58,050 nt of DNA, taken from assembly GCF_017468685.1 (NCBI RefSeq), contig NZ_JAFUHT010000083.1, positions 1 through 58,050 of the forward strand, given 5' to 3'. Under the pieces are notes generated by a model. That model saw only the letters and a program-made list of their open reading frames with translations. It had not been told where the DNA came from and did no database searches. This document shows, one piece after another, positions 30,338-57,638 of this stretch. The stretch comes from Methanobrevibacter sp. Its GTDB lineage: Archaea; Methanobacteriota; Methanobacteria; Methanobacteriales; Methanobacteriaceae. Each line of letters begins with the position of its first letter. Position 1 is the stretch's first letter. The translations under genes and the position numbers were made by a program.

Positions 30338-31300
30338 ATGGAATTAATAGAGAAACTTGAACCAATAATAATATTTTCAGCAGTCCTAATAGGATTAATC
30401 TTTTCAAATATAGACATTATAGTTCAAAATACAGATTATTTAATAAATATTTTCTTATGCCTAATGCTTTTTGGATTATTCCTTGAAGTGCCACTTGGAG
30501 ACTTGAAAGACAGCTTCAAAAATGTTAAATTTACTTCCACAAGTTTAATAATAAATTTCATATGGACACCACTGTTCGGTTATTTTTTAGGATCACTATT
30601 TTTAAAAGGCAATATTGATGTATTAATTGGATTTTTCATGTTAATATTAACTCCATGTACTGACTGGTATTTAGTATTTACCAAAATGGCAAAAGGAGAT
30701 TTAACATTAAGCTTATCCATACTTCCAATTAATCTAATCCTGCAAATAATATTGCTGCCAATTTATTTGGTTATTTTCTTTTCAAGCGGAAACACAATGG
30801 ACTACACACAACTCGCATATTCACTTTTAATCGTCATAGTAATACCATTTATTGCGGCCCAAATTGTCAAATTTATTTTGAATAACAGTTTACAGGAAAA
30901 AGCAAGCGAATTATTCAGTTCCCTTCAAATATGGTTTTTGTCCCTTGCAGTATTTTGCATATTCGCAAGCCAAGGAGAACTGCTATTCAATAATCTAAAC
31001 TCCGTTGCCACCATATTTATTCCATTGATTATATTTTTCATCGTTAATGTGATAATTGACTTATTGATATCAGAAAAGATTAATTTCACATACCAAGAAT
31101 ATGCCAGTCTAACCATGACAACACTAGCCAGGAATTCACCATTGGCATTAGCGATAGCAATAAATTCATTTCCGGGACATGAATTAATCTCAATAGCTCT
31201 TGTAATCGGACCATTGATAGAATTGCCAGTGCTTTATATTGTTTCAAAATTCTGCCTATGGATTAAAAACTCAGGATTGTTCTTTACTTGCAAACTTTAG
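30338..31300 (+). CDS. ACR3-like arsenite/BASS-family permease
   Basis: 320 residues with about 10 membrane helices, bile acid:sodium symporter superfamily. TPCTDWYLVFTKMAKGD near residue 110 keeps the conserved Cys of ACR3 arsenite exporters. The matching PCTAMV of bacterial ACR3 is not exact, so the substrate is uncertain. I choose ATG 30338 because AAAGTGATAAT precedes it, and the TATA box (TTTTATATATT, 30290-30300) would place the mRNA start near the ATG 18 bp upstream. The 293 bp before it hold the divergent ehb promoter and otherwise AT-rich sequence. It overlaps the convergent DUF457 gene by 4 bp. Confidence 0.75.
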   Translation: MELIEKLEPIIIFSAVLIGLIFSNIDIIVQNTDYLINIFLCLMLFGLFLEVPLGDLKDSFKNVKFTSTSLIINFIWTPLFGYFLGSLFLKGNIDVLIGFFMLILTPCTDWYLVFTKMAKGDLTLSLSILPINLILQIILLPIYLVIFFSSGNTMDYTQLAYSLLIVIVIPFIAAQIVKFILNNSLQEKASELFSSLQIWFLSLAVFCIFASQGELLFNNLNSVATIFIPLIIFFIVNVIIDLLISEKINFTYQEYASLTMTTLARNSPLALAIAINSFPGHELISIALVIGPLIELPVLYIVSKFCLWIKNSGLFFTCKL

Positions 31301-32004
31301 TTATTCATCACATAATGGCCAAATAAAGGAAATAGAATTGGAATATTATATAATATAGCGAAAAATATTAACAAGAATGTCATGCTTAAGCCAAAGTTTC
31401 TGTAAACCTTCTTAGAGGATACGGGTGCAAAAATCTTGATTCCTGCCGGTGTGAACGAATCAAGAACAACATGCGAAAACAATCCTATAAACAGACTCAG
31501 AACTATTTCAATGCAGGATATTTCAACTGCCGGAAGAACAAATAAACTGATGAAAAACAATGGCAGGAATATCATCATCAATTTCTTATTTAAGAATAAA
31601 AAGCTTAAAAGAGCTATTAAAATAGCCATCAACAAATACTGATTATCCAGAACAGTTACTGCACCAACTAGCTGAGAACCCCATATTAAAATTAAACTAA
31701 CTGCCGAAGTTAAGGTTAAAACGCCAAAAATAGAATGGGTGAAACTCCTGTGCTCTGAAAAGTAAAAAGTGACACCTAAAAAAACAATGATTAAACCTAT
31801 ATAATAAGGCAATTTAAGGATATAAAGTGAAATGAACACTATTAATCCCAAAATTATCATCTTATAGACATTTTCCTTTTTAAATTTATGGTCAAAATCA
31901 GGAATATTTGCACCAATGAATGTTAAAGCAATTGTTAGAGGATTGTGAAAAAACATCAATGCGAGAATGAATGCAAATATCGAATGCCCCTTGTATGAAG
32001 ACAA
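31297..32004 (-). CDS. YdjM/DUF457 family membrane metal-dependent hydrolase
   Basis: 235 residues with about 6-7 membrane helices and the DUF457 metal motifs: KGHSIFAFILALMFFH (His at 7), GANIPDFDHKFKK (near 30), HRSFTHSIFGVLT (near 85), and SHVVLDSFTPAGIKIFAPVSSKKVY (near 190). Catalytic activity of the family is little known; in Escherichia coli the relative ydjM is under LexA control. Translation starts at TTG (32002-32004) after a GGTGAT ribosome binding site. Its promoter carries the same 21-bp element as hjc. Confidence 0.85.
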   Translation of the reverse strand: MSSYKGHSIFAFILALMFFHNPLTIALTFIGANIPDFDHKFKKENVYKMIILGLIVFISLYILKLPYYIGLIIVFLGVTFYFSEHRSFTHSIFGVLTLTSAVSLILIWGSQLVGAVTVLDNQYLLMAILIALLSFLFLNKKLMMIFLPLFFISLFVLPAVEISCIEIVLSLFIGLFSHVVLDSFTPAGIKIFAPVSSKKVYRNFGLSMTFLLIFFAILYNIPILFPLFGHYVMNN

Positions 32005-32053
32005 TTAAATCACCTTAGTTAAAAATTTGATTTATATATTTAAAAGATTAATC

Positions 32054-32074
32054 AGAGAGCATTTGAAAAGTAAT
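32054..32074 (-). promoter_or_regulatory. 21-bp upstream element, copy 1 (DUF457 promoter)
   Basis: Minus-strand sequence begins ATTACTTTTCAAATGCTC and ends TCT. It lies 10 bp before the TATA-like TTAAATATATAA of the DUF457 gene. An identical copy precedes hjc at 57618-57638. Confidence 0.55.
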
Positions 32075-57158: not shown

Positions 57159-57569
57159 TTATTCAAATTTCATTTGCTTATCAATACCAGCTATTTCATC
57201 AATTTCAAAACCTTTCTCCAAAGCATAATCCTTTTCAACACGATAATTACCAGATTTTGTTCTTGGAGTGTTTTGAGGTTCTAAAAATAGCCATTTAGTA
57301 TATTTAAATCTAACTCCAATATATGGTTTGGCACCAAAAATTTTTGAAAATTCACAGAGTGCAGTAATTTGCTCCTCTTCAATGTAAATTTTTTCTTTTG
57401 TTGTTGTTTTAACCTCAATAGCCAAATATAATTTACCATTTCCAGCTAAAACATCAGGTAAAGGCCTTTTAGTGGCTCCTCCAGATGCAGGAGCTCTCAT
57501 AGCCGCAAAATTTCTCTCCCATAATTTATGTACCAAATCCCTTTCTTCAGCAGATCCTTTCTTTGCCAT
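57159..57569 (-). CDS. hjc: Holliday junction resolvase Hjc
   Basis: 136 residues from ATG 57569 (MAKKGSAEERDLVHKLWERNFAAMRAP), chosen over a TTG four codons upstream because Hjc proteins start this way and GAGTG precedes it. Catalytic set: Glu in AEERD, ASGG, Asp in PLPDVLAGN, ExK in AIEVKTTTKEK. Cuts four-way junctions in recombination. Its promoter has TTTATATA (57610-57603) and, 7 bp above that, the 21-bp element shared with the DUF457 gene. Confidence 0.95.
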   Translation of the reverse strand: MAKKGSAEERDLVHKLWERNFAAMRAPASGGATKRPLPDVLAGNGKLYLAIEVKTTTKEKIYIEEEQITALCEFSKIFGAKPYIGVRFKYTKWLFLEPQNTPRTKSGNYRVEKDYALEKGFEIDEIAGIDKQMKFE

Positions 57570-57617
57570 AGTAACACTCAATTAAAAATTTGTTTAAAAC
57601 CATATATAAATAAAATG

Positions 57618-57638
57618 AGAGAGCATTTGAAAAGTAAT
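57618..57638 (-). promoter_or_regulatory. 21-bp upstream element, copy 2 (hjc promoter)
   Basis: Identical to 32054-32074, same orientation relative to its gene, between tRNA-His and hjc. Candidate activator or repressor site. Confidence 0.55.

Follow-up and report, generated by a model that had tools for sequence, protein, structure and literature searches.

Two copies of one promoter element

The window, by which we mean the whole 58,050-nucleotide stretch of Methanobrevibacter sp. DNA that was analysed, contains two genes on the minus strand, hjc and a gene for a YdjM/DUF457-like membrane protein, whose promoters carry the same 21-bp element. The features of the two loci are as follows.

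57618..57638, minus strand: 21-bp element ATTACTTTTCAAATGCTCTCT, upstream of hjc (from the sequence; one of 33 genome-wide copies)
57603..57610, minus strand: TATA box of hjc, TTTATATA, with 7 bp between it and the element (sequence and spacing analysis)
57159..57581, minus strand: hjc, Holliday junction resolvase (Pfam PF01870, E 1e-35; ORF)
32054..32074, minus strand: exact second copy of the 21-bp element, in front of the YdjM/DUF457 gene (from the sequence; another of the 33 copies)
32037..32044, minus strand: TATA box of the YdjM gene, TTTAAATA, with 9 bp between it and the element (sequence and spacing analysis)
31297..32004, minus strand: YdjM/DUF457-like membrane protein gene (Pfam PF04307, E 1.5e-16; element-bearing orthologues in genera g1, g8 and g9)

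The original prediction described the two copies as identical over 21 bp, in the same orientation and 7–10 bp upstream of a TATA box. The identity is exact, the observed spacings fall within this range and the Pfam matches agree with the gene products that had been named. The hjc reading frame more probably starts at the internal ATG of MAKKGSAEE. An 18-mer taken from the element matches the window within three mismatches only at these two places, where 0.19 matches would be expected.

Copy number and anatomy of the element

In the genome as a whole (2.28 Mb, 94 contigs) the 21-mer has 33 copies at three mismatches or fewer, 11 of them exact, spread over many contigs and in both orientations. 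The reversed pattern, used as a control at the same threshold in the same genome, gave no match. Nearly all of the copies lie upstream of genes, with a TATA box typically 6–11 bp downstream. When the 33 sites are aligned the 21 bp are near-invariant, the upstream flank is almost without information and a second aligned block corresponds to the TATA box, most commonly starting 7 bp past the element (12 of the 29 sites with a TATA-like 8-mer). An orientation-neutral test found an exact TATA 8-mer downstream at 15 of the 33 sites in this genome and at 73 of 134 related sites; at the mirrored distance upstream the counts were zero of 33 and four of 134.

Scatter inside genes and loss of the element at hjc orthologues had been named in advance as observations that would count against a regulatory site. 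Neither was found: element centres lie within ORFs of at least 150 aa in 3 of 162 cases, compared with 69% of random positions, and the element is kept upstream of hjc in other species. Five of the 33 copies precede TnpB genes, as they would if the 21-mer were a dispersed repeat spread by IS605/TnpB transposons with no regulatory function. However, similarity between copies ends at 21 bp, the copies hold orthologous positions in different species and genera, they avoid ORFs and the TATA box is found on one side only. We rejected the dispersed-repeat reading because positions are conserved and flanking homology is lacking, and consider its probability to be negligible.

The fixed bases of the element, TTA[CG]TT.TCA...GCTC, are asymmetric, and no dyad symmetry of the kind found in a LexA-type palindromic operator is present. 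A position just upstream of the BRE is usual for archaeal activator sites (PMC5817253), and we consider it highly probable that the element is an activator site. Tandem drifted copies of the element, about 20 bp or two helical turns apart, were noted in genus g12 (loci L342, L343 and L360).

Target genes and their conservation

About 30 genes in this genome carry the element before their promoter, and most of these serve to copy or mend DNA. Among the targets are TopVI-B, RPA, MCM, the RFC small subunit, Hjc, Hef, Hel308, UvrA, an HhH-MutS-like protein and a YoaA/DinG/XPD-like helicase. NurA and Mre11 are also targets, followed by ORFs that we read by eye as HerA and Rad50, respectively. A divergent pair of targets encodes a DEAD-box helicase and a UvrD-like helicase, and the ORF after the latter resembles, again by eye, a PD-(D/E)XK nuclease. 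The other targets comprise NrdD (with an ATP-cone domain), YdjM, a tyrosine recombinase, a radical SAM protein, a DUF763 protein, a PfkB kinase, a Panacea protein, five TnpB genes and several unnamed ORFs; two or three sites (the second site of L016, L026 and L032) have no convincing target gene. By our own assignment, genome-maintenance genes follow 16 of the 28 non-TnpB sites, an enrichment with a hypergeometric p of about 4e-15 if some 100 of 2100 genes are taken to serve maintenance. The repair regulon that had been guessed from two promoters is borne out by this proportion and by the marking of the same orthologues in other species. We also note a 114-aa family (NWQEEITKIDPDIKFRAQGGWLKT...; L004:972-1313, minus strand), a conserved target in several genera that adjoins an RNase III-like gene and for which a Pfam search gave no match. 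This family and the DUF763 protein (L031) are candidates for new repair-associated proteins.

The whole-genome and congeneric searches that had been proposed were run. All 60 genomes sampled in the genus contain the element, often in 5–45 copies each, with control counts of 0–1. In one species (G036), 19 of the 20 sites fetched precede homologues of the same gene set, the twentieth being cut by a contig end; the targets there are NrdD, PfkB, YdjM, Hjc, TopVI-B, RPA, MCM, the MutS-like protein, integrases and TnpBs. The commonest targets at 146 related exact sites are RPA, TopVI-B, TnpB, Hef, Hjc, a membrane mini-protein (described below), UvrA and the MutS-like gene. The pairing of Hjc with YdjM is not accidental, as YdjM orthologues in three genera bear the element. 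Comparison of RPA and TopVI-B promoters from 17 genera suggests the fixed bases given above, and the relaxed form TTA[CG]TTnTCAnnnGCTC is conserved across the Methanobacteriales with control counts near zero. The element has drifted in genus g12 to TACTTATCAnnnGCTACC or TACTTATCAAGACCCCCC, with tandem copies in one genome. Nearly all of the matches listed for the exact 19-mer among GTDB contigs are from Methanobrevibacter, and those outside it are one Oceanobacillus contig and one rumen MAG labelled Ureaplasma. At the level of sequence, these comparisons establish many copies, a fixed orientation and TATA spacing, avoidance of genes, and orthologous targets across species and genera. The original prediction was correct in its observation and underestimated it.

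The presence of MCM, RFC-S, RPA, TopVI-B and NrdD among the targets is also what one would expect of a regulon tied to replication, growth rate or the cell cycle, in which DNA-synthesis genes and accessory repair enzymes are co-expressed during replication, and to that extent counts against a damage-type explanation. However, UvrA, Hjc, Hef, Mre11-Rad50, NurA-HerA, the MutS-like protein, the transposases and the viral integrases are not replication genes proper, and none of PolB, PCNA, primase and GINS was seen among the targets listed. We view a replication or cell-cycle regulon as the main rival, though as rather unlikely. Judged by the gene set, the inducing signal is somewhat more likely than not DNA damage or fork stress. 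Taken together, the element is very probably the upstream, activator-type site of a conserved genome-maintenance regulon of the Methanobacteriales.

Mobile DNA also carries the element. Several unrelated TnpB/IS605 genes have it together with a TATA box in their promoters, both in this genome (L011, L015, L019, L022 and L029) and in G036 (L224, L227, L228, L231 and L237). The exact 19-mer occurs in 11 viral contigs (L420–L430), where ORFs read as tyrosine integrases follow four of the copies. This distribution fits a model in which TnpB transposons, integrases and viral integrase genes would use the same site and so be coupled to the stress state of the host genome, as prophages are through SOS. 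The regulon resembles the bacterial LexA/RecA SOS regulon in that repair genes at scattered positions, the gene for a YdjM-type protein and mobile genes stand under one short promoter element. In contrast to LexA-type repression, a non-palindromic element upstream of the TATA box suggests activation. To our knowledge no LexA is expected in an archaeon, and none was seen here.

A further site, with one mismatch, lies before a group comprising an XRE regulator, an ImmA/IrrE-like protease (HELYH) and a PIN-like ORF (L023:3-1369, minus strand, contig C80). This group looks like a toxin–antitoxin or mobile module and is reminiscent of DdrO/IrrE. It speaks for a model in which the whole set is controlled by an XRE repressor that an ImmA/IrrE protease cleaves, but no second such pair was found among the genes behind related sites, and the element is non-palindromic and placed upstream of the TATA box as for an activator. 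Control of the DdrO/IrrE type is, in our view, very improbable.

Cdc6-2 as candidate regulator and comparison with known systems

The most conserved site of the relaxed element lies before the gene for the membrane mini-protein, which is convergent with orc1/cdc6-2. Most genomes of families f2 and f3 contain a single relaxed match, which as a rule falls between archease and a small ORF of about 55–60 aa with one hydrophobic helix; this ORF runs convergently into orc1/cdc6-2. The same layout of archease, element, small ORF and cdc6-2 is found in much of family f1, including this genome (C51:14757). The f3 archease is identical, or nearly so, to MTH1598 (PDB entry 1jw3), a match that marks this family as Methanothermobacter-like. 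The corresponding feature in this genome is

L191:1202-1375, plus strand: single-helix mini-protein gene on contig C51 (orthologues in L302–L305 and L350–L357)

The mini-protein has a basic N-terminus and gave no match in a Pfam search. It is kept in three families, in nearly every case with the element before its gene and with cdc6-2 converging on it from the other side. One could speculate that it is a damage-induced membrane effector, for example a division brake, although we hold this to be doubtful.

This genome encodes two Orc1/Cdc6 proteins, Cdc6-1 and Cdc6-2, which are 27% identical. The cdc6-1 gene stands beside four mini-ORBs (TTTCAAGTGT; L189:2939-3218, contig C3), likely the replication origin, and cdc6-2 is origin-unlinked. 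Cdc6-2 can be aligned from end to end with archaeal Orc1 proteins of solved structure and consists of an AAA+/lid core and a winged helix, the latter barely recognised by the Pfam wH model (E 0.046) and strongly conserved between families. The protein belongs to the NCBIfam subfamily NF001624, scoring 538 bits against a cut-off of 354. Cdc6-1 (191 bits) and Sulfolobus Orc1-1 (207) and Orc1-3 (132) fall below this cut-off, which is passed in two (not specified) of 14 control genomes. We note that throughout the order the Walker B motif of Cdc6-2 ends in DD where DE is usual, a change with a possible effect on ATP hydrolysis.

The best candidate for the regulator is Cdc6-2, at somewhat less than an even chance, on the strength of its neighbourhood, of its joint absence with the element in a genome of another order and of the precedent of Sulfolobus Orc1-2. 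The genome concerned, G151, is a reduced one from the same class and forms one contig of 1,243,342 bp; Cdc6-1 is present and Cdc6-2 is absent. In 800 kb (64%) of it the relaxed element has no match, and one match was found at one mismatch, which equals the reversed-control count. The promoters of top6B, hjc, mcm, hef, nrdD, hel308 and rfcS in G151 hold nothing closer than five mismatches. Joint absence of Cdc6-2 and the element is supportive of Cdc6-2 as the regulator but is not proof, as one genome amounts to one event. Apparent loss of cdc6-2 in the element-bearing genomes G036, G009, G133 and G137 was also considered as evidence on the regulator and was withdrawn; the adjacent archease gene is missing there too, so the absence is read as an assembly gap.

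The alternative that the element is a variant origin recognition box, bound by the initiator Cdc6-1, draws on the Methanobacteriales mini-ORB, TTTCAAGTGTAA, which repeats beside cdc6-1 and has the core T.TCA...G in common with the element. By eye this match was suggestive, but the matrix scores for the four ORBs fall at the 84th–99th background percentile, which is not significant, and the identification of the element as an ORB was rejected. The ORBs are, moreover, clustered at the origin, whereas the elements occur singly at promoters, and G151 keeps Cdc6-1 yet has no element in the 800 kb. Binding by Cdc6-1 is thus quite improbable.

A more serious alternative is a DNA-binding protein unrelated to Cdc6-2, with Cdc6-2 a mere neighbour of the site. 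The promoter of cdc6-2 itself lends weight to this: no element lies upstream of the gene in this genome, and the neighbouring one is beside its 3′ end and drives another gene. Against it stand the order-wide occurrence of the element beside cdc6-2, the joint absence in G151 and the presence of the element upstream of short (about 285 aa) Cdc6-2-like paralogues, apparently without a full winged helix, in G063, G071, G072 and G078 (also loci L307 and L316). We regard the case for an unrelated regulator as evenly balanced.

The precedent for Cdc6-2 is Orc1-2 of Sulfolobus, an Orc1 without initiator function whose binding site, a hexamer, lies upstream of promoters induced by damage (PMC9738581, PMC10470591, PMC5817253); regulatory or repair roles had been proposed earlier, in a review, for origin-unlinked Orc1 copies (PMC5333045). 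As in the Sulfolobus/Saccharolobus Orc1-2 regulon (A(N)TTTC, or DDRE), an asymmetric element lies upstream of the BRE/TATA of many genes, and herA-mre11-rad50-nurA targets are common to both. In Sulfolobus the regulator is known to be an origin-unlinked Orc1 paralogue without initiator function; here such a paralogue is the candidate. The element described here is longer (21 bp) and does not match the hexamer: it carries A[CG]TTnTC, which is one base longer. Its targets add RPA, MCM, TopVI, UvrA, Hef, Hjc and NrdD as well as mobile genes; ups/ced and tfb3 genes did not turn up among them. In contrast to the autoregulation of orc1-2 in Sulfolobus, cdc6-2 lacks a preceding element in this genome. 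As the element differs, autoregulation is not seen and binding by the regulator is only predicted here, we interpret the set as an archaeal damage-type regulon that is not a member of the Sulfolobus system.

In the mechanism that we propose, a protein would bind the asymmetric site at the upstream edge of the BRE/TATA and recruit TFB/TBP, so that expression of repair, recombination and replication genes would be raised together; Cdc6-2 would act much as Sulfolobus Orc1-2 does at the damage-response hexamer. No description of this element or of a methanogen repair regulon was found in a literature search, with subscription papers and preprints outside its scope. In its widest form, which we put forward tentatively and consider unlikely to hold in every part, the proposal would be an SOS-like methanogen regulon: Cdc6-2 would be a damage-responsive activator on the element order-wide, non-initiator Orc1 damage regulators would span two distant archaeal branches, the mini-protein would provide a division checkpoint, and TnpB transposons and proviruses would have tapped in.

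The finding bears on how archaea outside the Sulfolobales coordinate DNA repair. With a defined sequence, some 30 promoters as targets, a candidate regulator and a comparison across the order, it can be tested in culturable species, among them methanogens that dominate in the human gut and rumen. It may also be that, by carrying the host's own promoter box, TnpB transposons and viruses with integrase genes sense host DNA stress.
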